From: a virus
DNA length: 23,806 nucleotides
IMG/VR virus record: IMGVR_UViG_3300023116_000361
Location: 1-23,806 of that record
Strand: one strand, 5' to 3'
Shown: piece by piece, positions 4,784-20,446 of the stretch
Numbering within the stretch: the first letter of the stretch is position 1
How the letters are laid out: the number at the start of each line of letters is the position of its first letter
The notes under the pieces: generated by a model
What the model was told of the DNA's origin: nothing
What the model saw: only the letters and a program-made list of their open reading frames with translations
Database searches by the model: none
Translations under genes and position numbers: made by a program

Positions 4784-7278
4784 CATCCAAAAAATAGTTC
4801 AAGGTTTACAGTTTTCTCCACGTTCCATCCAATTGCATCCAGGATTGCTTTCAGGGGTTCAAGGAATGACTTTTCAAATTGTAAGTCATAATCAACGTAT
4901 TTGTCAATTCCAAGTTCTTTGGGGAAATCTTGGATGAAAGAAATTACGTTTTCATGGAATATATTTGGTTTCTTTAAATAACAGAATTTGATTTTCTCTC
5001 CATTCTGAATCAAAGAATATTTGTTTGTAAGTTTCTTTTGTTTAATATAATGATTGAATAAAAGTGCTCCACGAACATGAATGGGAGTTCCCTTTATATA
5101 AATGTCAGATGATGATGCATATTTTACAACATCAGATGCTGATCTTGGGAAAGAAATATCTTCAGGGGGAAGTTTCTTAAATTCTTCTCTACAGGTATCA
5201 ATAAAGTTGATCACATCATCTTCTGTCCCACTCATCATAAGTTTGAGACCATCTTTAATCATCTTGCGACAAGGTGCAGGAGTTGAAGACTTAACTGCCT
5301 CAATACCCATCATCTTCAGTTTAGGTTCAGTATATTGAACTCCTTCACTGTTCCATACGTTGAGAATATATCGCTTCTTGGCAGTCCAAATACCACGATC
5401 AGCGATGTTCTCACGCTTCATTTGCATCTTCTGTTCATACGCCGAAACGTAATCCGCAAGTTTCTGATAACTGCGTTCGATGAATGGTTCCAGTTTTTCT
5501 TGACAGATCTTGTCAAGTACTGAAACAATTGCTGCTTTATCACCAGACTTATTACCAAAGAATTTATCAACAAGAGGTCCCATATTAAGATAGATTGAGT
5601 CAGTGTCGGATGCAATGACATAATCTACGTTTTCTGTAGACAATAGTTTATTTAGATATTCGTTCATCTTATTCTCAATCCAACGGATAGAGACTTGACC
5701 AGAAAGCGTAATCGCTTCTGCATTGGCCAATTTGTAGTAACGGAAATACTGATTACCGATTGCACCATAAGCAGAGTTGAGTGAAATCTTTTTAGCCATC
5801 TGGATATTATTGCAACGTGCAATCTCTTTCTCCAGTGCCTTAGTAGGAGTCTTTTCATACTGTTGTTTTGCAGCGAGCATCTTCTTTTTAAATATAACAC
5901 GGTCGCCATACATTTTCTCCATCAGTTCTGGCAAGAACCCACGAATATCTTTGCGATACATTGCGCCATTGGCACATACTGCATTGTCTTTATACAATTC
6001 AAAGTTTATCTCTTCATTCAGTATCCTATTAACAGTTGCTGTTGGATGCTTTTCCTCAAGAAGAGTTTCTGGAGAAATATTATACTGCATGATCAAGTGT
6101 GGGTACAGAGAGTTCAAGTCAAAACTCACAACCCAATCATACTTTCCAGGAATGGGTTCTTTCACATATGCACCGGCATACTTTTCATTCTTATCAGAAC
6201 GAACTTTGGGGGGAATGACAATATTTCTTTTCTTCAAATAGTTGTAGATAATATTGTCCCACATTCTTACTTGATAGAACACGTCAACATAATTCACCTT
6301 GGCATCATACGCCATGGTGAGGGCGAGTTCAATCAGTTTCATCTTGTCTTCTAGACGATCGACAAGTTCCACGTCAACGATGTTGTATTCAATAAACTTC
6401 TGCCACCCATGAGTATAGAAATCTTTAAAGGTATCAAACTCAGAGTGATCAAGTTTCTTCTGACCAAGTTCTACGCTGGCAATATAATCAAGACGATATG
6501 ATTCTTGCGCTTTGTAAGTGAACTTCTTATACAAATCAAGGTAGTCAAGTTGAGTGACACCACCAACATCAAAGGTTGTGTGCTTACGACCTTGAATGAA
6601 AGTTTCACCTTGAGTTACAAGACCCCAAGGAGAGAATCTCTTCATTAGTTTCTCACCAAGGACACGATCAAGTCGTTTGCAAATATAAGGAATATCATAC
6701 AACTGAATGTTCCATCCAGTAATCACATCTGGAACGTCAACCATCCAATAATTGATAAAGTGATTGAGAAGTTCATATTCACTTGGACAATAATGGTATG
6801 TTACATTCTCCTGCTTATTGTTGAATGGTTTTACTCCCCAAGTAGTGATCTTCTTGGTTGCATAATCCTGAATAGTAATCGCAAGGATTTCTTCTGAAGC
6901 AGACTCCACATCAGGGAATCCCTCTTCAGATGAAACCTCAATATCCAAAGTTACAAGTTTGATTTGTTTTGTATCAAACTTGATTTCATCTTCTGGATAC
7001 TTTTCTGAAATGTATTGATAGATGTATCGATCATTTCCATAGATCTCAAATCCATCAACTCCTTCATATTTTTTGTAAAACTCACGACAATCACGAACAG
7101 TGCCTGGTTTTACTTCTTCTACGTGTTCTCCACCTAATGTTACATATTTTGTTTCCCTTTTGCTTTTTACATAAAGCGTAGGATAAAACTCATCTCTTGT
7201 TTCAAATCTTTTTCCATTTTCAACTCCACGAACGAGGAACTGATTGCCAATCAATTGAACATTAGTGTAAAAGCGCAT
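4783..7278 (-). CDS. gp43: Family B replicative DNA polymerase with proofreading exonuclease (gp43)
   Basis: An 831-residue polymerase that copies the phage genome with gp45 and gp44/62. Exonuclease motifs: LDIEV at 111-115 (Exo I), GWNIQLYD at 188-195 (Exo II) and YNIVDVELV at 298-306 (Exo III). Polymerase motifs: SFDLNSLYPHL at 385-395 (motif A), KKISLNSAYG at 496-505 (motif B) and SDTDS at 557-561 (motif C). The final residues NLELFFG match the aromatic C-terminal clamp-binding tail known from T4 gp43. The gene is intact, with no intein or split. It is somewhat shorter than T4 gp43 (898). The start overlaps the stop of the upstream LSm-like gene (TAATG). In T4, RegA and gp43 itself repress its translation; I did not identify that operator here. 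Confidence 0.97.
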   Translation of the reverse strand: MRFYTNVQLIGNQFLVRGVENGKRFETRDEFYPTLYVKSKRETKYVTLGGEHVEEVKPGTVRDCREFYKKYEGVDGFEIYGNDRYIYQYISEKYPEDEIKFDTKQIKLVTLDIEVSSEEGFPDVESASEEILAITIQDYATKKITTWGVKPFNNKQENVTYHYCPSEYELLNHFINYWMVDVPDVITGWNIQLYDIPYICKRLDRVLGEKLMKRFSPWGLVTQGETFIQGRKHTTFDVGGVTQLDYLDLYKKFTYKAQESYRLDYIASVELGQKKLDHSEFDTFKDFYTHGWQKFIEYNIVDVELVDRLEDKMKLIELALTMAYDAKVNYVDVFYQVRMWDNIIYNYLKKRNIVIPPKVRSDKNEKYAGAYVKEPIPGKYDWVVSFDLNSLYPHLIMQYNISPETLLEEKHPTATVNRILNEEINFELYKDNAVCANGAMYRKDIRGFLPELMEKMYGDRVIFKKKMLAAKQQYEKTPTKALEKEIARCNNIQMAKKISLNSAYGAIGNQYFRYYKLANAEAITLSGQVSIRWIENKMNEYLNKLLSTENVDYVIASDTDSIYLNMGPLVDKFFGNKSGDKAAIVSVLDKICQEKLEPFIERSYQKLADYVSAYEQKMQMKRENIADRGIWTAKKRYILNVWNSEGVQYTEPKLKMMGIEAVKSSTPAPCRKMIKDGLKLMMSGTEDDVINFIDTCREEFKKLPPEDISFPRSASDVVKYASSSDIYIKGTPIHVRGALLFNHYIKQKKLTNKYSLIQNGEKIKFCYLKKPNIFHENVISFIQDFPKELGIDKYVDYDLQFEKSFLEPLKAILDAIGWNVEKTVNLELFFG

Positions 7279-7547
7279 TACTTAATCAGGTCCTGATATT
7301 TTTCAAGTAGGGTGGGCATAGGATCTGCAAGAGTTAAAATCTTGTCAGAACTCATCATAAAAGTTTCTTGTTTTGTCAACTTTAACATAAATGGCGTAAG
7401 AGTATAAGTCGCCTCTTTGTATTCAGTTACAATGCAAGGTTTGATCAATTTGCAATCTGGTTCTCCAATATCAGCACCAACCTCTTCAATCTGCGATATA
7501 AGAATCTGATTGTTCATCAGAAACATCACTTTGATTACTTTGTCCAT
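7278..7547 (-). CDS. LSm-like small protein, copy C
   Basis: An 89-residue protein that aligns by eye with two others in the window (7486-7866 and 22391-22804): an N-terminal beta hairpin segment (IKVMFLMNNQILISQIEEV), a KPCIV strand, a Y-x-L-x-PF strand, then an ILTL-to-YQDLIK C-terminal helix. The strand pattern resembles Sm/LSm-like beta-barrel proteins, but no RNA-binding residue can be asserted. The N-terminal 20 codons overlap the upstream paralogue by 62 bases in another frame. The alignment needs those residues, so the overlap seems genuine. The stop overlaps the gp43 start. Confidence 0.75.
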   Translation of the reverse strand: MDKVIKVMFLMNNQILISQIEEVGADIGEPDCKLIKPCIVTEYKEATYTLTPFMLKLTKQETFMMSSDKILTLADPMPTLLEKYQDLIK

Positions 7548-7866
7548 GGTTTACAACATCCTCGATATACATTTCTTTTAATTTGGCAGTTGGTTCTACC
7601 ATAGTAACAAGCCAATCTGCAGGAACTGGAATTCTTTTATCTGCAGAAAGTGGAATCCATGGGAAAAGAGAAACTTCATATCCTGCCTTTTGAACTCCAT
7701 TCTGAATTTCTTCATTGAGAAGACTTGGATTCCTCATTTTAATGATGCAAGGTTTATCCAAAAAATATCCAACAACTCTTGGATTCTCTTCTTCACCTAC
7801 TGCCATCTCTGAAACATCAGCAATGATGTCTTCACCAGATTTTAGTACAACTAATTTAATGGTCAT
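7486..7866 (-). CDS. LSm-like small protein, copy B
   Basis: A 126-residue protein starting MTIKLVVLKSGEDIIADV. The LKSGE-D-I-A-V start, KPCIIKM strand, and Y-x-V-x-x-FPW segment followed by VTMVEP...L...Y...V match the copies at 22391-22804 and 7278-7547. A beta-barrel Sm-like fold is inferred. The last 25 residues are polar and probably disordered, and are encoded over the start of copy C. It is the first gene after the promoter at 7888-7916 and thus leads the operon containing gene 43. Confidence 0.8.
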   Translation of the reverse strand: MTIKLVVLKSGEDIIADVSEMAVGEEENPRVVGYFLDKPCIIKMRNPSLLNEEIQNGVQKAGYEVSLFPWIPLSADKRIPVPADWLVTMVEPTAKLKEMYIEDVVNHGQSNQSDVSDEQSDSYIAD

Positions 7867-7887
7867 AACACAAATTTACCTATTAGT

Positions 7888-7916
7888 ATTATAGCAATAA
7901 AAAAGAGGGGGGTCAA
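7888..7916 (-). promoter_or_regulatory. Sigma70-type promoter with extended -10, embedded in a terminator
   Basis: On the minus strand TTGACC (7911-7916) is followed after 17 bases by TATAAT (7888-7893), preceded by TGC, giving an extended -10. The -35 hexamer lies in the 3' arm of the terminator hairpin at 7905-7939. The predicted start near 7881 gives a leader of about 15 bases to the LSm-like copy B. It should drive the gene 43, uvsX and 41 operon. Confidence 0.82.
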
Positions 7917-7939
7917 CTGGATTTTGCCAGTTCCCCCTC
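7899..7939 (-). terminator. Strong rho-independent terminator after hsp20
   Basis: On the minus strand GAGGGGGAACTGG pairs with CCAGTT, a two-base bulge and CCCCCCTC around a six-base loop (7905-7939), followed by six T residues. It is the longest and most GC-rich hairpin in the window. Its 3' arm doubles as the -35 region of the next promoter. Confidence 0.9.
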
Positions 7940-7967
7940 CGTCTGCGCCGACGATATTCGTTATTAT

Positions 7968-8399
7968 TTAGAGATAATCTTTACGTGCATGATGGTCTGG
8001 AACTATTTTTCCAAGGACGATTCTGAGGAGTCCGTCTTCGAAGGTAACGTCTCGTACTTCGGTGTCGTCGGATAAAGTCCACGCTCGTTTAAAGCTTCTG
8101 CTAGCCACTCCCTTGTGGATAAAGGTCTTCTCCGACTCTGTATCTTCCCTTTGTCCTTCGACAAAAAGTTTTCCATACTCCGTGAAAACATTGACTTCTC
8201 CTTTCTTAAATCCTGCTAATGCAATCTCTAAGTGTGATTCTACATTATTTACCTGAATAAGGTTGTAAGGCGGATAGTTTGTTGTAGTTTCATGAAGATT
8301 AAAAAGACGATCAAAATATTCGTCCATACCAATACTGTTCTTGGTGATCTTATCCATCAAGGTATTAAGATCCGCAGCAGAATAACGCTGGATGTTCAT
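7968..8399 (-). CDS. hsp20: Small heat-shock protein, Hsp20/alpha-crystallin type
   Basis: A 143-residue ATP-independent holdase chaperone. The alpha-crystallin domain starts around YPPYNL (residues 42-47) and contains IALAGFKKGEV, the GVASRSFKRAWTLS segment and the DGLLRIVLGKIVP end with the usual hydrophobic I-x-L pattern. The length is close to bacterial IbpA. Hsp20 is a conserved cyanophage gene, possibly protecting virion or host photosystem proteins; the client is unknown. The ATG has an excellent AAAGGAG Shine-Dalgarno. It is flanked by terminators on both sides (8481-8508 and 7905-7939) and has its own -10 element at 8460-8465, so it looks like a single-gene transcription unit. Confidence 0.93.
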   Translation of the reverse strand: MNIQRYSAADLNTLMDKITKNSIGMDEYFDRLFNLHETTTNYPPYNLIQVNNVESHLEIALAGFKKGEVNVFTEYGKLFVEGQREDTESEKTFIHKGVASRSFKRAWTLSDDTEVRDVTFEDGLLRIVLGKIVPDHHARKDYL

Positions 8400-8459
8400 T
8401 ATGGTAGCTCCTTTAAAAGCGAGTTTGTGTTGTGTGGACCCTTACGGCATCCATTACTA

Positions 8460-8994: not shown

Positions 8995-9359
8995 TTTGTT
9001 CCTCCAATGTCAAGTCGTTGTTTAATAAAAGTGATTTGTTCGTTTGTCAGGATTTTCAGTGCTTGGGATGCTTTTTCATTACTATAACCATAGTATTGTT
9101 TTACACATTCTAAGTCTGTGACTTTATCCTTACGGAGCCAAGGAGAGAATCTCTTCTTTTTCCTGAGACTATTTAGATAAAATGAATATTGCATATCTTT
9201 ATCTAAGAAATGATACTTATTCATTTCGTTTGCAAACATAATACAGTCCAAGTGTCCAGAAAGACAACGATTGACAATGTATGGAGGATATTCCTTTGTA
9301 TGTTCAGTAAGATCTTCTTTTGTAAAGTTAATTGAGTTAAGCCAGTCTTTGAGTTCCAT
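8991..9359 (-). CDS. gp62: Clamp loader small subunit gp62
   Basis: A 122-residue partner of gp44 in the clamp-loader complex that opens gp45 on DNA. Recognisable by size class, the order 44-62-regA-43 and the N-terminal LKDWLNSINFTKEDL pattern with the later PPYIVNRCLSGHLDCI segment, which resembles the T4 gp62 region with PFIVNRALS-like residues. It is shorter than T4 gp62 (187), which is usual for cyanophage versions as far as I recall. The start overlaps the stop of the 352-residue gene (TAATG). It has no catalytic motif, as expected. Confidence 0.9.
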   Translation of the reverse strand: MELKDWLNSINFTKEDLTEHTKEYPPYIVNRCLSGHLDCIMFANEMNKYHFLDKDMQYSFYLNSLRKKKRFSPWLRKDKVTDLECVKQYYGYSNEKASQALKILTNEQITFIKQRLDIGGTK

Positions 9360-10417
9360 TATCTAATAATCTCCAAGTTTGCACCAGGTTCCCAAATCTC
9401 AAGTTGAGTTCTAACTCTCCCATCAGATTTAAGTTTTTCATATCTCTTTGACGCTTTCTTTTTCCACCAAGAAATTGCCTCTTCTGTATTGTGACGAAAG
9501 TCTCCAAGATAATACCTTTTCTTCTCAGTCAAAGATTTTGCATGATTAATACAATCATTAAACTCTTTAAGTTTATTCTCATCTTGCAAAGACTTACGAA
9601 TAATAGAGATCATCTTAGTTTGAATCTTGAGTTTCTTAGATGACTTGTCTGCGGAAATCAGACGCTCACCACCATTACGCTCATTAAACCACCAGAAGAA
9701 GTCACGAAACTCATCATCATGAAAGAGAGGCAAGAAGTTACTCTCAGTGTCACCAATATGTCTTAGAAAGGGTTTGAGTCCATCGTACATAGACACACCC
9801 TTGGTGGTTCCATACAGAGAAGTGGTCTCAAAGTATTTGAGATCAGTTCCATACTTATCATCAAACTGCTGCTTGAGTTCTTTTGATGATGCTAAAAGGG
9901 CAAGTAACTTTCCCCCCAAGTAATTGAATCCAAAAGGTTGAGTAGGAACAATATTAAAACCCATGACAAAATGAGCGTTAATATCAGAGAGAGGAAGGAC
10001 TTTTCCAAAGTAATCATTGCGTGGTTTACTATTGATTGTTGGAGATCCAAATCGAACAACCCCAACCACTTTATCACTATTTGTTTCTACAACAATCCAC
10101 TTGTGAGTTCTACCAGGAATCGCTTCCTCAATAGCATTAGATGCAGTGAGATTAAGAGTCTCAGAATACAACCATTGATTGTATCTTGATGTTGTCTTTG
10201 GATTCGTATCGACAATATGAATCTGGAAGTTCATATCATTTGGATGAACATCAAACGAATCATAGAATTCAGAATCAGCACCAAATAAAGCACCAGATCT
10301 ATCAGAAATCCTATCCTTCTTCACAAAACGAAGATAGTCATCAATACGATTGAACTGAGAATAATAATTTATAAATTTATTAGCAGCATAAACTGCATCA
10401 TCCTCAGTCAGTATCAT
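9359..10417 (-). CDS. Unknown protein, possibly DUF4338/DruA-like
   Basis: A 352-residue soluble protein in the clamp-loader operon. The central part (about residues 105-215) reads WIVVETNSDKVVGVVRFG, then PFGFNYLGGKLLALLASS, then KYGTDLKYFETTSLYGTTKG. This order (substrate-like beta strands, a conserved Leu-rich helix, a KYG element and an E-T-T-S-x-x-G loop) reminds me of the DUF4338 (DruA) family. The similarity is by eye and remote. The N-terminal 100 and C-terminal 130 residues are unassigned, the latter basic (SWWKKKASKRYEKLKSDGR), suggesting nucleic-acid contact. The start has a GGGGAG Shine-Dalgarno and ATGA overlap with the membrane-protein gene. Function is not known. Confidence 0.85.
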   Translation of the reverse strand: MILTEDDAVYAANKFINYYSQFNRIDDYLRFVKKDRISDRSGALFGADSEFYDSFDVHPNDMNFQIHIVDTNPKTTSRYNQWLYSETLNLTASNAIEEAIPGRTHKWIVVETNSDKVVGVVRFGSPTINSKPRNDYFGKVLPLSDINAHFVMGFNIVPTQPFGFNYLGGKLLALLASSKELKQQFDDKYGTDLKYFETTSLYGTTKGVSMYDGLKPFLRHIGDTESNFLPLFHDDEFRDFFWWFNERNGGERLISADKSSKKLKIQTKMISIIRKSLQDENKLKEFNDCINHAKSLTEKKRYYLGDFRHNTEEAISWWKKKASKRYEKLKSDGRVRTQLEIWEPGANLEIIR

Positions 10418-12444: not shown

Positions 12445-12896
12445 TGGAAAAACTGGTTGATGTATCTTACACCCCAGTCTAATGCATGAAGTGGGATGTC
12501 GGCAATATTTTGTGCCAGAATGTCTTTTGCCTTAATAATTCGCTCTTGACCAAGAGCACGGATACATGCACCAGAGGAACGCATATACTCGTTTAGGTCA
12601 TCATCATTTCCGTGTTTGAAACCACTGATATAGATGTCCCTAACTTCCCTCAGCAGTTTTTCTGTTTCTGGTTCAAATGCAATAGTTTCTTCCTTCAGGG
12701 GAATTGCCATATTCTTCATACAAGACATACTGAACTTCATTGCCTTTCGTGTCTCATAGGTAGAATAAGCAAAGATTTGCTTATCCCTATAAGCATATTG
12801 CATAACTCCGTTAGCACATTCCATCACACGAAGGACGGCAACTTTGTCTTTCTCACCATCAGACAAACTATTAAAGATAGTTTTCCAGTCTTTCAT
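12441..12896 (-). CDS. Unknown protein, 151 residues
   Basis: A 151-residue, probably helical soluble protein (MKDWKTIFNSLSDGEKDKVAVLRVMECANG...). There are four Cys residues spread through it but no CxxC pair, and no membrane segment. Its ATG overlaps the AdoMet decarboxylase stop (ATGA) and its end overlaps the next GTG start, so it is translated in a coupled series from gene 45 towards gene 44. No family recognised. Confidence 0.82.
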   Translation of the reverse strand: MKDWKTIFNSLSDGEKDKVAVLRVMECANGVMQYAYRDKQIFAYSTYETRKAMKFSMSCMKNMAIPLKEETIAFEPETEKLLREVRDIYISGFKHGNDDDLNEYMRSSGACIRALGQERIIKAKDILAQNIADIPLHALDWGVRYINQFFQ

Positions 12897-13228
12897 TCCA
12901 GTGGTCTCACAAATTCACGACTAACAATATTAGATGCATGAAGCATCTGTCTCATGTATTCTACACCAGCAGCAGGATCAGTGTGATCCCCACAGGTAAA
13001 AACGTCACAAACTGCCATACCCAACTCTGGCCAAGTGTGAATGCTGATGTGACTTTCAGCAAGCATTGCCACACAAGTTACACCTTGAGGATCAAACTTG
13101 TGTGAGTTGAGTGCCAGCAGAGTAGAATTACATTTGACGCTGGCATGATAAACCACATCCCTAATGTATTGTTCATCATCAAGAAGAACCATACTACAAC
13201 CTTTCAAGGTAAAAAGGATGTGTTTCAT
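12893..13228 (-). CDS. speD: S-adenosylmethionine decarboxylase proenzyme (SpeD/SpeH class 1b)
   Basis: A 111-residue pyruvoyl enzyme making decarboxylated AdoMet for spermidine synthesis. The self-cleavage site LAES-HISIHTWPE is at residues 56-68, with cleavage expected between E58 and S59 and Ser59 becoming the pyruvoyl group. H64 and C79 (DVFTCG) have the same spacing (5 and 15) as Ser63, His68 and Cys83 of the Thermotoga enzyme. All key residues are present, so it should be active. The ATG is at 13226-13228, overlapping the gp45 stop; a TTG one codon upstream is not needed. Host-derived metabolic gene within the replication operon. Confidence 0.92.
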   Translation of the reverse strand: MKHILFTLKGCSMVLLDDEQYIRDVVYHASVKCNSTLLALNSHKFDPQGVTCVAMLAESHISIHTWPELGMAVCDVFTCGDHTDPAAGVEYMRQMLHASNIVSREFVRPLE

Positions 13229-13893
13229 CAACCAAAGCTGGAATCAGGTTCCAGAGCGATATAGTAAGTAAGATCGTGGTTTTTGCTAGTAAATCGAGAA
13301 AGAAGTTTTTGAGAAACAACAACTTCATAAGTTCCAGGAAGAACTTTGATGTTTTCTACTTTGAAGTTGAAGCAGAATTCATTCTCAGTTTCACCAACAA
13401 CAATTGCAAAATCGTTGGAGGTTTCGTTTTTCTTATCACGAACAACCAGTTTCACAACACCTGCTTCACCAACGGCAGAGATATCGGGAAGTTGATAAAC
13501 TGCTGCTGCCTTGAGCAGTTTGTCCAGTTGTTCAGTGCTCACTTCAAAGCAAACATCCTCACTAGGAAGATTAATTTCCTTGTCAGGTGGAGTGACAATT
13601 ACATTGGGATCAGCGAAGAAATACTTAGAACGCATTTTACCTTCACGAATCACAACGTAACCTTCATTACCAAAGTCAAGTTCAGGACTTTGATGAAGGG
13701 TCAGACCATTAAGGAATTGATTCAGATCATAGATACCAAAATCTTTAGAGAACTCCTCAGTAATGGTTGCTTCTGCAAGGATGTTCTTCATCACACTAAT
13801 AGTGCGAAGTTTGCTACCTTCTTTGAAAAGGATAGACTGATTGATGGAAGAAAAGTTCTTCAGGACAGAAAGAGTTTTATCAGAAAGTTTCAT
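13228..13893 (-). CDS. gp45: Sliding clamp gp45
   Basis: A 221-residue processivity clamp, a trimeric ring that tethers gp43 and, in T4, also activates late transcription with gp55 and gp33. The start MKLSDKTLSVLKNFSSIN matches T4 gp45 (MKLS...LLKNFATIN) residue by residue, so the ATG at 13891-13893 is chosen over the upstream one at 13911. A GGAA lies a few bases ahead of it. Other matching parts are GIYDLNQFL and the C-terminal YYIALEPDSSF. Length close to T4 (228). It overlaps the previous gene by 14 bases. Confidence 0.96.
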   Translation of the reverse strand: MKLSDKTLSVLKNFSSINQSILFKEGSKLRTISVMKNILAEATITEEFSKDFGIYDLNQFLNGLTLHQSPELDFGNEGYVVIREGKMRSKYFFADPNVIVTPPDKEINLPSEDVCFEVSTEQLDKLLKAAAVYQLPDISAVGEAGVVKLVVRDKKNETSNDFAIVVGETENEFCFNFKVENIKVLPGTYEVVVSQKLLSRFTSKNHDLTYYIALEPDSSFG

Positions 13894-14491
13894 AGGGTTC
13901 CGTATTTTCATTACAAAGGCCAGCGAAGTGATAGAGAAGAATGCAATAGTGAATTGCTTTTAGAATGTCTTGTTTTGACTTACCATTCTTCTTACCAAAG
14001 CGAGAAAGGTATTTAATAGCATTGCTGCGACAGAAAGGTTCTGCGTCACCAATACCCTCAATCAAATCAAGGGTTTGAGTTTTAGATCCTTCAGAAGCAT
14101 AGTGAGAACGATAAGTTCCGCCAAGATATTCACGAATTTCTTTGATGATTACGTCTTCATTGTACTTCCAAAAACCATTTTCGTTAGTAGGTGCTTCAGG
14201 AAGTTCTGGAATGTCATTCATGTTCAATTTAAATGTAGATGCGTCGTATGGAGAAAAGGAAATGTGATCTTCTCCCATTCCACCATAAATTCTAGATCCA
14301 ACAAAAGAAACAGTATCAGCAGCTCCAATACCATCAGAACTAAACGTAATAGTATCAGAAGAATAGTGAGGATTTCCAGTTAGACTAATTCCATCTTGTT
14401 CCCAGAAATCATTCCAATCTCTTTCTGTTGTTTCACTGGTGCCACCAAGAATGGTGACATCATCTTTTTCAGGCATAACGCTGTTAATCAT
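13880..14491 (-). CDS. DUF3310-type protein with an unusual repetitive N-terminus
   Basis: A 203-residue protein. The C-terminal part (about 138-200: QTLDLIEGIG...FCRSNAIKYLSRFGKKNGKSKQD, read in pieces) fits the DUF3310 pattern found in many phages, with the NAIKYLxRxGxK core; function unknown. The first 90 residues are acidic and Ser/Thr/Gly-rich with three similar short stretches (DTITFSSDGI, DTVSFVGSRI, DHISFSPYDA). The ATG at 14491 has an AAGAGG Shine-Dalgarno six bases upstream and a near-ideal promoter just ahead (14507-14535). It heads the gene 45 to regA operon. Confidence 0.82.
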   Translation of the reverse strand: MINSVMPEKDDVTILGGTSETTERDWNDFWEQDGISLTGNPHYSSDTITFSSDGIGAADTVSFVGSRIYGGMGEDHISFSPYDASTFKLNMNDIPELPEAPTNENGFWKYNEDVIIKEIREYLGGTYRSHYASEGSKTQTLDLIEGIGDAEPFCRSNAIKYLSRFGKKNGKSKQDILKAIHYCILLYHFAGLCNENTEPYETF

Positions 14492-14506: not shown

Positions 14507-14535
14507 ATTATATCAAAATTGGGATTGCTCGTCAA
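14507..14535 (-). promoter_or_regulatory. Sigma70-type promoter with extended -10 before the gene 45 operon
   Basis: On the minus strand TTGACG (14530-14535) is followed after 17 bases by TATAAT (14507-14512), preceded by TGA (extended -10). The -35 and spacer lie in the last codons of cobS. The predicted start near 14500 leaves a leader of about 10 bases to the ATG at 14491. Confidence 0.82.
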
Positions 14536-15631
14536 CGGGCATTTGGAAATCTGCATCAACTTTATCATACAGTTCCAAGAATGCTTGTTTGGTTTCGTCA
14601 TCAAATCGGTTCACGCAAACTTGGATTGCTTTTGCTTTATCTTGGAAGATACTGTAGGCACGAACAATGTGAACCAGGCGGCGAGTACTGATGATTTCCT
14701 CAATACCACCATCATAAAAGGTCTTGCGGATAATGTCTGCCCAATCACAGAGACGCTTGAGGAAATCAAGATCAGCAGTTTCTTTGAATGCTCCAATAGA
14801 AGCAGCAACTTTGTAGAGAATTTTGTATTCGTTGGTAGCAGTGGGATACTCCTGCTCAAAGGTAACAGGGAAACGTTCTAGGAAAGCTTCATTGAGCACG
14901 TTAGTCCCAATGAATCGACCGTCGTCACTCCCCTTGCCCTTTGTGTTTGCCGTTGCGAAGATCTGGAAACCCTTGGCGGGCGTAATGTACTTGCCAATCT
15001 TCTTGAGGAAAACGCCTTTACCTTCAAGGATGGACTGGAGGCAAAGGATTTTGTTGCTAGCGAGGTCGATTTCGTCAAGAAGCAAGACGGCACCTCGTTG
15101 GAGGGCTTCCACAACGGGACCATTGTGCCAGACTGTGGCACCATCAACAAGGCGGAAGCCACCAATGAGATCATCTTCATCAGTTTCGATAGTAATGTTT
15201 ACACGGATCAGTTCTCGTCCAAGTTGGGCACACGCTTGTTCAACAGATAGAGTTTTGCCGTTTCCAGAAAGACCTGTAATGAACGTTGGATAAAACAGAT
15301 TGGATTGGATAATTTTTTTAATATCGCCAAAATTACCAAACTTGACGAAGGTATCATCTTTTGCAGGAATAAGGTTTTGCTCAATTGCAGGTAGTGCTGC
15401 AGGAGCATTATAGGAAGTTTCCAGTTCTTTTACAGTTTCTTTAGTTACTTCCAAATTCCACTTACCACGACTAGTTTTATAATCTTTGAGTCGATTAGTG
15501 ATGGTTTGATAATTAAGATCATTCATAGCACAATAACCTTTGATGTCTCCAGAAGTGACTTCTGGACCATACTGATTCTTAAGATTGGTAATCAGTTGAT
15601 CATCGGTCATAGGGAACTGAGAACGTGGCAT
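14513..15631 (-). CDS. cobS: CobS-like/MoxR-type AAA+ ATPase
   Basis: A 372-residue AAA+ ATPase of the CobS/MoxR branch. Walker A GLSGNGKT is at 120-127, Walker B VLLLDEID at 182-189, sensor 1 ATANT at about 226-230 and the arginine region EEIISTRRLVH later. Residues 1-60 form a small polar domain. Such genes are labelled cobS in cyanophages after the cobaltochelatase subunit, but the sequence only shows a MoxR-type remodelling ATPase. The partner is probably the VWA protein encoded just upstream. The start MPRSQFPMTD (15629-15631) is chosen because the longer frame reads through the terminator stem. A TATAAT at 15656-15661 gives it its own likely promoter. Confidence 0.92.
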   Translation of the reverse strand: MPRSQFPMTDDQLITNLKNQYGPEVTSGDIKGYCAMNDLNYQTITNRLKDYKTSRGKWNLEVTKETVKELETSYNAPAALPAIEQNLIPAKDDTFVKFGNFGDIKKIIQSNLFYPTFITGLSGNGKTLSVEQACAQLGRELIRVNITIETDEDDLIGGFRLVDGATVWHNGPVVEALQRGAVLLLDEIDLASNKILCLQSILEGKGVFLKKIGKYITPAKGFQIFATANTKGKGSDDGRFIGTNVLNEAFLERFPVTFEQEYPTATNEYKILYKVAASIGAFKETADLDFLKRLCDWADIIRKTFYDGGIEEIISTRRLVHIVRAYSIFQDKAKAIQVCVNRFDDETKQAFLELYDKVDADFQMPVDEQSQF

Positions 15632-15655
15632 AGTGTGTTTCGTTTCAACAGAGTC

Positions 15656-15661
15656 ATTATA
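15656..15661 (-). promoter_or_regulatory. Probable promoter -10 element for cobS
   Basis: On the minus strand TATAAT lies about ten bases beyond the terminator stem at 15671-15689 and about 25 bases before the cobS ATG. The -35 position falls within the hairpin and matches only about three of six bases. Confidence 0.55.
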
Positions 15662-15689
15662 AAAGAAAAAGGGGGCGCTGAGCACCCCC
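15661..15689 (-). terminator. Rho-independent terminator after the VWA/peptidase gene pair
   Basis: On the minus strand GGGGGTGC pairs with GCGCCCCC (one G-T pair) around a three-base loop (15671-15689), followed by TTTTTCTTTT. It separates the peptidase transcript from cobS. Confidence 0.9.
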
Positions 15690-15694
15690 CATGG

Positions 15695-15832
15695 TCACTT
15701 TGCAAATCGTCCATATTTGAACTTCATTGCTGCTAGTAACCAGGCGTCGGTTAATTTTTTAGGTCCTTCCAACAAAACTTTTCTGACCTTTGAATCTGTT
15801 TCTGAAGCAAGTGCTATTTCTTTCCAATTCAT
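15695..15832 (-). CDS. Small protein between the peptidase/VWA gene and cobS, 45 residues
   Basis: The ATG at 15830-15832 overlaps the stop of the peptidase/VWA gene (ATGA), and a 45-residue frame (MNWKEIALASETDSKVRKVL...) ends with TGA at 15695-15697, six bases before the terminator stem. The gene exactly fills the gap. The peptide is basic and helical (KKLTDAWLLAAMKFKYGRFAK at the end, read in pieces). It could be a small adaptor for the AAA+/VWA pair; that is inference from position only. Confidence 0.68.
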   Translation of the reverse strand: MNWKEIALASETDSKVRKVLLEGPKKLTDAWLLAAMKFKYGRFAK

Positions 15833-17967
15833 ACGACTAAGGAAATAAATTCACCTAGGACTTTTTTATTTAGTTTCTTGGTTCTCAAACTTTTAACAAA
15901 TGCTGACTTAATTTGAGATTTAGTTGCGTCTTCTTTAACATCAAACTCAGAATCTTGAGATAAAGCACTGGAAGACATTCCAAAGTATGCATCATATCCA
16001 GATTCTTTAATGCAGAAACTTTTTTGCTTTTTCCATTCAGTTTGGAGTTTGCAAAGTTCTTTACCATAATCATAGTACATTTTCATAAAGTAATTTGCAT
16101 CACGAGAGGAAAGAACACGAATACCAATAAAGTTTACTGTGGGAAAGTTGTCCTTTAAATTCCTAAGCATAGTATCAGTAAACTTATGCCATTGATATTC
16201 AACTTTATATGTTGTTCCAATCTTACGATCGCGTACAAATGTTGTTTCCGGATTGATACGACGAGTTCCAATGTAAGGTTCTTCTTCCCAATCACGTTTT
16301 ACTTCAACATGACGATTAAGTTGATTTGCTTCTCCATCAGTCAAAACAATACATTGTACTTTTTGTAGTTTATTTTCTTTCTGAAACTTTGGAAGAATTT
16401 GATGCAGAGAAACAAGTGCTTCATTCAGAGGAGTGCCAGAGAGACTCATTTGATCAGGGATACTATAAGTAGATCCATAAGAACATCCAAAATAAGACGC
16501 AATTCTCCAAATATTAAGCATTTGCTTTTCCAATTCTTTAGAAGAAGTCTTGCTACTGAGAATATTCATCATACTAAAATTGTCAGATACAGAAAGAAGT
16601 CCATCTTTCTTTTCATAATGAGCTTTGATTTCAGCAGGAATATATCGATCACTATTTTCATCATATGTTGTGCGATGCCATTCATTAGTGAAAGCATATA
16701 CATCAAAAGGAATAGAAACTTTCTTACAGAACCAAATAAGATTAAAGAGTTGCTTACATGTATCCTGAAGAACTTGCGACATAGAACCACTCCAATCCAA
16801 AACAAAAATCAATCCATGATTTTTGCCATCAGGAATCACAGAAACCTTTTTGAATAGATCTTCATTGTACTTATAGGTATGAAGTTTAGTACAGTCCAGA
16901 ACACCAGTGCGAGCAGTAGTAGAACGTGCATAAGAATCTGCTGACTTACGACACTCAAATTCTTTGACCAGATAGTTTACTTCTTTCTGAGTAGAGTTTT
17001 TAAACTTTTTAAATTCTAAGTCAACTTGATTATAAACATCTTCACCAAGATTCTCTTTTTGTTTTTTAAAATATGCATCCACTACACTATCAATTTTTTC
17101 ATTATTAATAATCACAGACTCCAAATTTAGTTTTGGAAGTTCAACATAAACACTGTCTTGAGTATATTGGGAAATCAATTCACGAAGATTTTCCTCAAGT
17201 TTATCGACGGTGGTAACTTCAGGTTCTTCATTGGTTTCACCACCCATAGAGGTAGGTTGCTTCTGTTGTTCAGCAGTACCACCATAAGAGTTGGTTTCGC
17301 TAGGTTGTTCCTGATCACTCTCATTCTCACCCTCAGGTTGATCAGAGAAGTCAGAAGAAGGTTGGTTAGAACCTTCAGACTGAGACTCCAGACTGTCCAT
17401 AGGAGTGTTGCTTTCTTCTTGTTTCTTTTGCTTACAGAATTTATAGAGTGCCTCTGCAGCAATCAGAACATCAGAAAAGGTTTCAGCATCAGCGATCAGA
17501 TTGATAATTTCAGTCTCTTCACCACGTTCAATAGGAATATCAATATGATTTCCAATCTTGAACCAGAGGTTAGCGCGATCGGCAAGATTCATCTTAGAAA
17601 TATCTTCATCTTTAAGAGCGAAAAAATCTTCATCACTCAGTTCTTTATATCCATTAAAAAATGTCTTTGCAAGTCCCATATACTTGCGCTTCATAAGTTT
17701 TTCAATGCGAGCATCCTCAACAATATTCACAAAAGAATGTGGAATGTTTTGCGGAGGGTCCTCATCTGGAGTAAAGAGTGCATGACCAACCTCATGACCA
17801 ACAAGCATGTCATAAACAACATTACTTGCCCTATCCCAAATGGGAAGAGTCAGTACACGAGTATGAACATTGAACTGGGCAGTTTCAATCTTACGATGCT
17901 CCACAACCAAATCTTCAGTTGCAAGCAGTTTGGCAAGTTGAGATTTGATTTCGTGGGAGACAGACAT
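15829..17967 (-). CDS. Zinc metallopeptidase-like domain fused to a VWA domain (CobT-like)
   Basis: A 712-residue protein. Near the N-terminus GHEVGHALFTP holds a HExxH zinc site (residues 58-62), with VEDARIEKLM downstream as possible third-ligand region. Residues about 182-254 are an acidic, Ser/Gln/Gly-rich linker. The C-terminal VWA domain has the full MIDAS set: DWSGSMS (391 on), SGTPLNEAL around 510-518 and VLTDGE at about 541-546. CobT of cobaltochelatase has the same acidic linker plus VWA layout but not, to my knowledge, the HExxH part. The start MSVSHEIKS (17965-17967) has a GAAG Shine-Dalgarno; MGTYE at 17991 is the alternative. Likely works with the CobS-like ATPase. Confidence 0.9.
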   Translation of the reverse strand: MSVSHEIKSQLAKLLATEDLVVEHRKIETAQFNVHTRVLTLPIWDRASNVVYDMLVGHEVGHALFTPDEDPPQNIPHSFVNIVEDARIEKLMKRKYMGLAKTFFNGYKELSDEDFFALKDEDISKMNLADRANLWFKIGNHIDIPIERGEETEIINLIADAETFSDVLIAAEALYKFCKQKKQEESNTPMDSLESQSEGSNQPSSDFSDQPEGENESDQEQPSETNSYGGTAEQQKQPTSMGGETNEEPEVTTVDKLEENLRELISQYTQDSVYVELPKLNLESVIINNEKIDSVVDAYFKKQKENLGEDVYNQVDLEFKKFKNSTQKEVNYLVKEFECRKSADSYARSTTARTGVLDCTKLHTYKYNEDLFKKVSVIPDGKNHGLIFVLDWSGSMSQVLQDTCKQLFNLIWFCKKVSIPFDVYAFTNEWHRTTYDENSDRYIPAEIKAHYEKKDGLLSVSDNFSMMNILSSKTSSKELEKQMLNIWRIASYFGCSYGSTYSIPDQMSLSGTPLNEALVSLHQILPKFQKENKLQKVQCIVLTDGEANQLNRHVEVKRDWEEEPYIGTRRINPETTFVRDRKIGTTYKVEYQWHKFTDTMLRNLKDNFPTVNFIGIRVLSSRDANYFMKMYYDYGKELCKLQTEWKKQKSFCIKESGYDAYFGMSSSALSQDSEFDVKEDATKSQIKSAFVKSLRTKKLNKKVLGEFISLVV

Positions 17968-18142
17968 GTTCTTCGTTTCGTATGTACCCATAATAAAACG
18001 AAAGGTCGCCCTTAGGACGACCCATGTGACGCTTTTTAAAGTGGCGCAGTGCTTCACGCCTTGATCTCATTGCTTGAGGTTTAAGGCGACGTTTCTGTTC
18101 TTTTTTACTATGGTGTTGCCAGTTCGGGGTAGAGTTGGCCAA
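17915..18142 (-). CDS. Doubtful small basic protein read across a terminator
   Basis: A TTG start at 18140-18142 with AAGGA directly ahead opens a 75-codon frame. The first about 45 residues are strongly basic (SKKEQKRRLKPQAMRSRREA...) with codons typical of the neighbours. The rest runs through the terminator hairpin at 18004-18022 and into the start of the peptidase gene, and looks like noise. A candidate promoter at 18168-18196 would start a transcript about 20 bases ahead. It overlaps the sulfotransferase end by 35 bases. It may be a real short protein, or the region may act as a small RNA. Confidence 0.35.
   Translation of the reverse strand: MANSTPNWQHHSKKEQKRRLKPQAMRSRREALRHFKKRHMGRPKGDLSFYYGYIRNEEHVCLPRNQISTCQTACN
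17990..17995 (-). promoter_or_regulatory. Weak -10-like element before the peptidase/VWA gene
   Basis: On the minus strand TATTAT (five of six to TATAAT) follows the terminator at 18004-18022, without a recognisable -35. It fits the arrangement seen at the other terminators and would start transcription just ahead of the MSVSHEI start. Confidence 0.35.
17995..18022 (-). terminator. Rho-independent terminator before the peptidase/VWA gene
   Basis: On the minus strand GGTCGTCC pairs with GGGCGACC (one G-T pair) around a three-base loop (18004-18022), followed by TTTCGTTTTATT. The T-tract is interrupted, so efficiency may be moderate. Confidence 0.75.
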
Positions 18143-18734
18143 TTTCCTTGCGATAAAGTGATTTGATATTATCTATGAGAGCAGGAGTTTTGTCAAGTTT
18201 ATTTGATTCATAATCTTGTTTTGAATATTTTACTTTTTGGTCCATAGTGACAGGAACACCAACAATATCACTCAACCAATTAGAAAAGTTTTCTCCAAGT
18301 CCATCTTCAAATCTCCACACATGTGTTTTATCTGATAGGAAGTCAAGTTGAGATCGATACCAGTTTACAGATTCTGTGCAAGGATAATTTTCAAGCATTG
18401 AGAAGAAATACATTGGATCTTCCATCAACTCTTGAATATCATCACCATATAAATGTTTGAGATAAATTGATGCTGAGATGAAGCGATCAATGGGGTTTCT
18501 TATGATGCAGACATGGGGAATATTTTCTACATCCAAATGCTTTTCATAATACTCTTTATGAAAATGAGCAACCTCTACACCATCAACACTTTTGTATTGG
18601 CGATCAACATCAACCTTATCATCCCATACCCAACCCTGTGCATCTAAATTTGATTCAACAAATCTACCACCAGTTCTTGGAATATGAATGAAAAAGAATC
18701 TCTTTCCTGTTTCTACATGCTTATATGTTGACAT
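18108..18734 (-). CDS. Sulfotransferase-like protein
   Basis: A 208-residue protein with the two PAPS-binding signatures of sulfotransferases: FFFIHIPRTGGRF at residues 13-25 (5'-phosphosulfate loop, with Arg in place of the common Lys) and CIIRNPIDRFISAS in the middle (3'-phosphate motif with Arg and Ser). The family moves a sulfate group from PAPS to a sugar, lipid or protein; the acceptor is unknown. The short length points to a minimal single-domain enzyme. The ATG at 18732-18734 overlaps the gp46 stop (TGATG). A promoter-like sequence is in its 3' end. It is an accessory gene in an otherwise core order. Confidence 0.82.
   Translation of the reverse strand: MSTYKHVETGKRFFFIHIPRTGGRFVESNLDAQGWVWDDKVDVDRQYKSVDGVEVAHFHKEYYEKHLDVENIPHVCIIRNPIDRFISASIYLKHLYGDDIQELMEDPMYFFSMLENYPCTESVNWYRSQLDFLSDKTHVWRFEDGLGENFSNWLSDIVGVPVTMDQKVKYSKQDYESNKLDKTPALIDNIKSLYRKEIGQLYPELATP
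18168..18196 (-). promoter_or_regulatory. Candidate promoter in the end of the sulfotransferase gene
   Basis: On the minus strand TTGACA (18191-18196, perfect -35) is followed after 17 bases by GATAAT (18168-18173, five of six). The predicted start near 18161 lies just ahead of the small basic frame at 18142 and about 140 bases before the terminator at 18004-18022. It is within coding sequence. Confidence 0.45.
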
Positions 18735-20446
18735 CAACTCGCCATTCTACTGAAACCTTTTACCTTCTCAAACTTAATTACGTTTTCAAATTTATCATGC
18801 AACGACTCTTTATGAGAGATCACAAATACGTTTGCATCTTTGATCACATACTTAATAATTTTAAGAAATTCCTCTGTACCAAAACCATCCAAAGAACTAT
18901 CAAATACCTCATCCATAATCAGGAGATTTGTATTGACTGAGTTCTTCATCCTTGCAACTTCACGCCAGGTGAAAAGGAGTGCAAGGTCGATCCTCATTTT
19001 TTCTCCTTCGCTAAAAGAAGAGTATGAAAAATCTTCATGAATAGGGGACTGGACGGTTTCGTTAAATTCCTCATCAAGTGTGAAGTTAATATAAAAGTCC
19101 ATCATTTGGAGATAACGATTGACTTGCTGATTTATCAGCGGTAGATACTTCTTAATGATTTTGGTTTTAACTCCACCGTCTTTAAGTAGACTGTACGAAA
19201 AATCGTAATAGTTGATAGTGTCCCGTCTAGAAGCGAGTTCGTCGTATGTAGTTTTTAAATTTTCCTTAAAGGATTCTAACTTCTCATGTTCAATATTTCT
19301 ATTTGCAAGTTGGTCGGTAATTCTTTGAATTTCCGATTCCAAATTTCTGATTTGTCTGTGACATCCAGAAATTCTAGTATTGTTTTGAGAAATGCCATGA
19401 GTTAAGGAAGTAATCTCCTTTGATAAATTTGTAAATTGACGCTCTCGCTCTTCTTCCTCTTTAATTGCCTCCTCCAGTTCTTTATAACCGGATTGCAACT
19501 CTTTTGCTTTATTTTGAGCGTCTGTAATTCTATTTATTCTGAAGACCTCTTCAATTGACTGCGTACAGGTAGGGCAAACTGTATTCTCAGTGAAAAACTT
19601 GTGTTCTTTTGTAATAGTAGATACCTTGTTAGAAATTTTTCCTTTCAAGTTACCAAGTTTACGAAGTTTTTCTGTTGCACCAATAAATTTTTCAAGTTGT
19701 TCTTGACTCGTTTCAACCTTGCTATTCAAGTCTTCATTGCTCAGAATATATCCATTTTCTTCATCCAAAAGTTTTTGAATGATACTTTCCTTTTCTTCAA
19801 TATTTTGCTTTCCTCTATTCTCAAGTTCCTCAATAAAATTTTCTTGCATAGAAACTTTTTCATTGAGAGATTCTTTTTTCAGTTCAAGAATTTTGATATC
19901 TTCTTTAACTGAACGAATCTTTTCTTTGATGACAGAATTCATCGTGGAAAAGATACGAATGTCAAGAAGATCTTCAATCACTTCTCTGCGATTTGCTGCA
20001 GACAATTGCATGAAGGGAACAAATGTGCTGCTACCAAGAATTACAATTTGAGTAAATGATTTGTAGTTCATTTTCAGAACGTTCTGTTCAAACCACTTCT
20101 GTTGATCCAAAGAAGCTGCCTCTTGATCCAACAAAGAATCATCTCTCCAGATCTCAAATACTGCTGGTTTAATTCCTCTGATAATTTTCCAGTCAGTTCC
20201 AGAAATAGAAAACTCAACCTCAACCTTACAATCCTTTTCGTTCACAGAATTGATGAGTTGGGGTTTATTAATTTTACGAAATGGTTTACCAAACAATGAA
20301 AAAGTCAGTGCATCCAGAACTGTGCTTTTTCCTGCTCCATTTGTTCCAATAATTAAGTTCGTTGTATTCTCAGTAAAATCAATTTCACTAAATTGATTTC
20401 CAGTGCTTAGGAAATTTTTCCAACGAATTTTTTTAAATAAAATCAT
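18734..20446 (-). CDS. gp46: Recombination nuclease ATPase subunit gp46 (SbcC/Rad50 family)
   Basis: A 570-residue SMC-like ATPase that works with gp47 to process DNA ends for recombination. Walker A GTNGAGKS is at 34-41, long coiled coils run from about 170-290 and 300-410 on either side of a zinc hook CPTC (291-294), the ABC signature FSEGEKMRIDLAL follows at about 478-490 and Walker B LLIMDEVFD at 508-516. Length matches T4 gp46 (560). The ATG overlaps the end of the DUF3110-like gene by 14 bases. Confidence 0.97.
   Translation of the reverse strand: MILFKKIRWKNFLSTGNQFSEIDFTENTTNLIIGTNGAGKSTVLDALTFSLFGKPFRKINKPQLINSVNEKDCKVEVEFSISGTDWKIIRGIKPAVFEIWRDDSLLDQEAASLDQQKWFEQNVLKMNYKSFTQIVILGSSTFVPFMQLSAANRREVIEDLLDIRIFSTMNSVIKEKIRSVKEDIKILELKKESLNEKVSMQENFIEELENRGKQNIEEKESIIQKLLDEENGYILSNEDLNSKVETSQEQLEKFIGATEKLRKLGNLKGKISNKVSTITKEHKFFTENTVCPTCTQSIEEVFRINRITDAQNKAKELQSGYKELEEAIKEEEERERQFTNLSKEITSLTHGISQNNTRISGCHRQIRNLESEIQRITDQLANRNIEHEKLESFKENLKTTYDELASRRDTINYYDFSYSLLKDGGVKTKIIKKYLPLINQQVNRYLQMMDFYINFTLDEEFNETVQSPIHEDFSYSSFSEGEKMRIDLALLFTWREVARMKNSVNTNLLIMDEVFDSSLDGFGTEEFLKIIKYVIKDANVFVISHKESLHDKFENVIKFEKVKGFSRMAS

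Follow-up and report, generated by a model that had tools for sequence, protein, structure and literature searches.

A MoxR-type AAA+ ATPase and its zincin-VWA partner in a T4-like cyanomyovirus form a candidate protein-remodelling pair

Introduction

Pairs of a MoxR-type AAA+ ATPase and a partner with a VWA domain have been described in several systems. In the model for NorQ/NorD, the MoxR hexamer grips the VWA domain of a partner made of an N-terminal domain, an unresolved linker and a C-terminal VWA domain with a metal-ion-dependent adhesion site (MIDAS), and the linker to the N-terminal domain is twisted or stretched; NorD serves iron insertion into nitric-oxide reductase (PMC13036017). 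CobS/CobT likewise joins an AAA_5 ATPase to a VWA partner, which works with CobN. Closest in architecture are the group 2.2 jumbo phages, in which a MoxR ATPase gene lies by a VWA gene whose product also carries a metallopeptidase domain at its N terminus; a role in virion assembly with processing was proposed for this pair, following the example of a MoxR-VWA pair in the tail assembly of an archaeal virus (PMC7824862). In cyanophages, almost all myoviruses have cobS, which is routinely classed with the vitamin-B12 genes, and the neighbouring 'peptidase' gene has been interpreted as a mis-annotated CobT (PMC8651126). Here we describe such a pair in IMG/VR virus record IMGVR_UViG_3300023116_000361, positions 1 to 23,806. 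This whole stretch (23.8 kb; hereafter the window) is a fragment of a T4-like cyanomyovirus, and all genes discussed from it lie on the minus strand.

The genes themselves are mostly known, as 'cobS' and the adjacent 'peptidase' gene of the cyanophage core (T4-GC 150 and 146; PMC3037559), and the precedent for the architecture is that published for jumbo phages. What is new is that the zinc site was tested across CobT relatives, that the pair was placed in a replication-module context, which includes IncC plasmids, and that a small adjoining gene was rejected as an adaptor. We consider it somewhat better than an even bet (probability about 0.6) that the pair is a MoxR-type AAA+ remodelling machine with a gluzincin-type VWA partner that targets replication, recombination or transcription proteins rather than cobalamin synthesis.

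Results and Discussion

The zincin-VWA protein

The larger gene (15829..17967) encodes a 712-residue protein of the phrog_459 'peptidase' family (1.9e-267). A first-pass annotation, made from the letters of the window, had described it as an HExxH site joined to a complete VWA MIDAS through an acidic linker, and this anatomy was confirmed. The N-terminal zincin (gluzincin-like) domain (residues 1-188; 17404..17967) carries the zinc-binding motif HEVGH (residues 58-62; 17782..17796) and, in an EDARIE motif, E84-D85 (17713..17718), the putative third zinc ligand on a 'glutamate helix'. An acidic linker, predicted to be disordered (residues 191-243; 17239..17397; predicted local distance difference test (pLDDT) below 50), leads towards the C-terminal VWA domain (residues about 380-665; 15973..16830). 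Its MIDAS begins with DWSGS (residues 391-395; 16783..16797) and is completed by T512 and D544, giving D391xS393xS395...T512...D544. In the full-length AlphaFold2 model (pLDDT 83.5, predicted template modelling score 0.76), HExxH lies on a helix spanning residues 49-65 and E84/D85 on a helix spanning residues 77-95.

Both metal sites are strongly conserved. In 84 aligned relatives, the zinc-site residues H58, E59, H62, E84 and D85, as well as N81 and R87, do not vary; D391, S393, S395 and D544 are also invariant, and T512 is nearly so. Absence of HExxH from most homologues had been set beforehand as the outcome that would speak against a peptidase-type site, and the motif was present in 209/209 distinct full-length relatives, a count that includes two later scans with a GHE-containing pattern among others and is biased towards HExxH to that extent. 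It was also present in all 86 relatives retrieved with patterns that did not contain HExxH.

When the N-terminal domain was modelled separately (pLDDT 91.4) and compared with folds in the PDB, the leading matches were nearly all zincins, with ArdC, PprI/IrrE, jannalysin, abylysin, selecase and BlaR1 at the head; agreement of this kind among the top 15 matches is hard to get by chance. Minigluzincins and the ArdC/IrrE zincins share the fold of this domain and its HExxH-type helix, but they are stand-alone or otherwise fused proteins without a VWA domain or AAA+ ring. The VWA domain matched that of NorD (9qhd, 9qhe, 9qh8) and the MIDAS domain of human MDN1. The 712-residue protein had no Pfam match at E 1 to DUF2201, a metallopeptidase-VWA family. 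HExxH and a downstream glutamate on a helix are gluzincin features, and proteolysis is a putative activity of the zincin domain.

The ATPase and its pairing with the VWA gene

The second gene (14513..15631) encodes a MoxR/CobS-type AAA+ ATPase of 372 residues, the phage 'CobS' (AAA_5, 1.7e-17, 64.2 bits against a cut-off of 22; phrog_249, 1e-137). As the first-pass annotation had noted, it has Walker A, Walker B and sensor motifs, and these are conserved: Walker A is GLSGNGKT (15251..15274; GxxxxGK(T/S) in all seven aligned relatives), followed by Walker B LLLLDEID, the sensor-1 TAN, an ER arginine finger and the sensor-2 TRR. Its PDB relatives are Midasin, CobS (chains 2.9e-22), NorQ and CbbQ, and the CbbQ_C domain scored 20.2 bits against a cut-off of 20.6. 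Translation likely starts at the ATG at 15631 (MPRSQF...), in agreement with relatives such as Syn9. A 390-residue reading from the GTG at 15685 is unlikely, since that codon sits within a hairpin and T run (15690-15670). The region ahead of the AAA core (15370-15631) is absent from the Ochrobactrum phage. In Syn9 this region gave a helix-turn-helix match below the cut-off, and a DNA-binding head on the ATPase, for which that match was the sole support, was not adopted.

A tblastn search with the 712-residue protein matched 463 phage records, and in 461 the match covered 80% or more of its length. The carriers are almost all myoviruses of Synechococcus, Prochlorococcus and Pelagibacter, together with Ochrobactrum phage OC, Pseudoalteromonas phage XG4 and one Stenotrophomonas phage. 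Of the 114 loci with enough sequence, 112 have the ATPase gene after the VWA gene, and no CobN was found in 12 phage records with the pair; the outcome that the first-pass annotation had named as a refutation, a VWA protein that co-occurs with a CobN-type chelatase instead of this ATPase, was thus not seen. The jumbo-phage architecture of MoxR ATPase and VWA-metallopeptidase extends to cyanomyoviruses at large, the likeness being drawn from the published description. In XG4 (4869-8406), the VWA and zincin parts are separate genes in swapped order, directly before the ATPase, which is read as two overlapping frames (7176-7496 and 7483-8406); this record is flagged as unverified and an error is possible.

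Between the two genes lies a 45-residue open reading frame (15695..15832; phrog_869, function not assigned), which the first-pass annotation had taken as the third member of the system and as an adaptor coupling its partners. Its ATGA overlap (15829-15832) is real, but it is with the VWA gene only; a hairpin keeps it apart from the ATPase gene. The small gene adjoins the VWA gene in just 14 of 197 relatives and lies elsewhere within the locus in 11. In most isolates listed its homologue is at least 8 kb away, for example beside gp3/uvsY. The adjacency count and the hairpin before the ATPase leave the adaptor role unsupported, and the 45-residue protein was rejected as a general part of the system. 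Of the proposed trio, the ATPase-VWA pair is the conserved unit, and the 45-residue gene is a small gene that shifts position among cyanophage genomes. Proteins of the phrog_869 type share a core, GPKSLxQAWxLQAMKYKYG, vary in genomic position and are sometimes part of a longer open reading frame.

Relation to CobT

Profile comparisons linked the zincin-VWA protein to CobT by way of phages and plasmids. The cyanophage N-terminal domain is homologous to that of CobT-like proteins of mobile elements (E 1.6e-9), in an alignment that pairs the HExxH and EDxRIE (EDxxIE) motifs of both, and the mobile-element proteins are in turn homologous to bacterial CobT (3e-38); the protein of Escherichia phage Cyrano, for instance, matches PF06213 (6.4e-27) and CobT_C (3.2e-82). 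Direct profile comparison of the cyanophage protein with bacterial CobT gave no significant match, and the window protein had no match to PF06213 or PF11775 at E 1. By these profiles, the kinship of the 712-residue protein with CobT is remote and runs through phage CobT.

The zinc site separates the two. HExxH was found at the site in none of 80 chromosomal CobT loci from rhizobia and related bacteria, and it was also missing from the chromosomal CobT sequences read in a wider sample of Pseudomonadota. In these proteins the columns that align with HExxH show letters like DSMAL, and the glutamate of the second motif, of the E-x-x-R-I/V-E type, is retained. Two seeming HExxH matches among the rhizobial CobT sequences were discarded, as they came from the extended open frame ahead of the protein itself. 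One genome copy of CobT has HECGH and looks like the IncC plasmid type, a visual assessment based on its neighbour.

Since the zinc site is kept in cyanophages and missing from chromosomal CobT, the label 'peptidase' is not simply a mis-annotation there. Both earlier interpretations are partly right, and these sequence comparisons favour the metallopeptidase reading (PMC7824862) over mis-annotation (PMC8651126).

Related pairs in other mobile elements

Similar pairs occur in elements of varied hosts. HExxH is kept in Cyrano, the Klebsiella phage-plasmid, Rhizobium phage RHph_Y2_11, Roseobacter phage CRP-810, T5S1, ICP2, Gordonia phage Anamika, Rhodococcus phage Reynauld, IncC plasmids, Ochrobactrum phage OC and XG4. 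A second motif of the E84 type stands out clearly in the proteins of the T4-like phages, the phage-plasmid, the Roseobacter phage and the IncC plasmids; in Anamika and Reynauld it is unclear. The first examples suggested that HExxH is present in every mobile-element CobT, a generalisation that three further lineages refuted.

Replication or recombination genes adjoin the pair in most of the unrelated elements examined, IncC conjugative plasmids included. It lies beside dnaE in the Klebsiella phage-plasmid, nickie, Cyrano and the Rhizobium phage, near a primase in ICP2, near a polymerase and a primase/helicase in T5S1, and near a recombinase in BUCTxx99. In IncC plasmid NZ_CP025240.1 (9993-17986), the counterparts of the window pair are an ATPase of the CbbQ/MoxR type and a CobT-like VWA protein whose zinc motif is HEAAH and whose MIDAS reads DMSSS. 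Their genes are not adjacent and flank ssb, bet, exo and one DUF3150 gene.

Proposed function and alternatives

Because the layout of N-terminal domain, disordered linker and VWA domain with MIDAS is the same as in NorD, we propose a mechanism of the NorQD kind. With the VWA domain in its grip, the ATPase ring would spend ATP on twisting or pulling the linker of the partner together with a bound substrate, for which the MIDAS could be the docking point. The substrate would thereby be brought to the zincin domain, where it might be cleaved or gripped tightly in a metal-dependent manner. Likely targets would be phage or host proteins of the replication, recombination or transcription programme.

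Several observations weigh against this proposal or narrow it. The zincin matches that dominate the N-domain fold search all stayed above E 0.001. Despite the same gene pair, HExxH is lost in Pseudomonas phage nickie, Stenotrophomonas phage BUCTxx99 and Acinetobacter pDETAB1; therefore, cleavage cannot be required everywhere, and the ATPase-VWA motor can evidently work without the motif. The replication-gene neighbourhood is suggestive only, as early modules of phages are rich in replication genes anyway. Finally, distance matrices of the VWA protein correlated with those of the ATPase (0.90) no better than with those of gp46 (0.91), and since they did not discriminate, coevolution was dropped as evidence of pairing.

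The loss of HExxH in some phage relatives fits a remodeller that binds metal and cuts no peptide, with the metal of HExxH either structural or used for insertion into metalloproteins, and NorQD and CobST are themselves metal-insertion machines. In the T4-like branch, though, HExxH and the glutamate helix are invariant, including the catalytic Glu59, which a structural metal would not obviously need. We therefore consider a purely non-proteolytic role in these phages rather doubtful. T4-like phages process their head proteins, and this would suit a chaperone-protease that processes or assembles capsid or tail proteins. That role is the one assigned to the jumbo-phage pair, which has the same architecture, in a study that covers T4-superfamily phages (PMC7824862). 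The cyanomyovirus data point instead to the replication module, since the pair is syntenic with replication genes and not with head or tail genes, and CobS is not among the cyanophage-core proteins named as detected in virions (PMC3037559). The window shows no enrichment of ATAAATA, the core of late promoters, and no copy stands directly before the ATPase or VWA gene. Because IncC plasmids form no virions yet carry a homologous pair, a universal role in virion assembly is disfavoured, and we regard virion assembly as an unlikely function of the pair here.

A third possibility is that the pair consists of cobaltochelatase subunits that hijack host CobN and raise cobalamin levels, for example for ribonucleotide reductase, 'peptidase' then being a mistaken name (PMC8651126). 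The ATPase is indeed related to CobS, the N-terminal domain is linked stepwise to bacterial CobT as set out above, and the control genome of Synechococcus elongatus encodes a protein of the CobN/Mg-chelatase family. Yet the ATPase scored only 76.8 bits against the NCBIfam CobS equivalog TIGR01650, whose cut-off is 558.55, and its partner fails the CobT models. CobN was absent from all 12 phage records examined that carry the pair, although host CobN could still serve, and the pair is present in elements of hosts as varied as Gordonia and enterobacteria. Together with the zinc site, these points make a chelatase role improbable. Because chromosomal CobT has lost HExxH and the tested phages have no CobN, remodelling with possible proteolysis is favoured over B12 synthesis, in line with the first-pass proposal of a MoxR-VWA remodelling pair that has a peptidase-type zinc site and need not act in cobalamin synthesis.

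If the pair is a remodelling protease, the vitamin-B12 reading would be in error across a large part of the data on marine viruses. Retention of the zinc site by the T4-like branch and by many mobile elements, and its loss from chromosomal CobT and some phages, form a pattern that offers a route to asking how chelatase motors arose. One speculative answer, which we hold to be possible but not probable, is that AAA+-driven zinc proteases form a class that is spread over phages, phage-plasmids and conjugative plasmids and targets replication or recombination complexes, and that bacterial CobST descends from this class, having lost the zinc site and been recruited for metal insertion.

Gene neighbourhood and transcription

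Besides the pair and the 45-residue gene, the window encodes a uvsW-type helicase, late sigma gp55, gp47, gp46, a DUF3310 protein, gp45, speD, gp44, an hsp20 gene, a DNA polymerase, a UvsX-like recombinase and a DnaB-like helicase. The upstream neighbour gp46, a recombination nuclease subunit (18734..20446; phrog_77), precedes the VWA gene in 101 of 112 loci, and the downstream neighbour gp45, the sliding clamp (13228..13911; Pfam gp45-slide_C), follows in 69 of 77.

Strong hairpins resembling intrinsic terminators flank the zincin-VWA gene, one in the gap between the 45-residue and ATPase genes (15670..15690; a 9-pair stem and T run) and one upstream (18003..18023). Of 145 related loci, 38 have such a hairpin between the VWA and ATPase genes, and 44 of 141 have one upstream of the VWA gene, against 0.2 expected in each case from mononucleotide shuffles. 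Since hairpins flank the gene here and in related loci, the ATPase and the VWA protein may be expressed at different levels. Those at the gene boundaries of related cyanophage loci are of the same kind and differ in sequence. The main text of infection-transcriptome papers gives no timing for cobS. No structured RNA in the window reached Rfam thresholds. Neither the ATPase nor the VWA protein matched a defence model in PADLOC, and an anti-phage defence reading, being without that support, was dropped.

Between gp46 and the zincin-VWA gene, the window encodes a weakly sulfotransferase-like protein (18108-18737; phrog_3347, galactose-3-O-sulfotransferase); no such gene is annotated at that place in the S-SM2, P-SSM2, S-PM2, Syn9 and P-HM2 loci viewed. 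The replication module also contains speD, for S-adenosylmethionine decarboxylase (12893-13231), and a gene for a 352-residue protein (9359-10417) that belongs to phrog_19197 (6.6e-181), a family with no function assigned.

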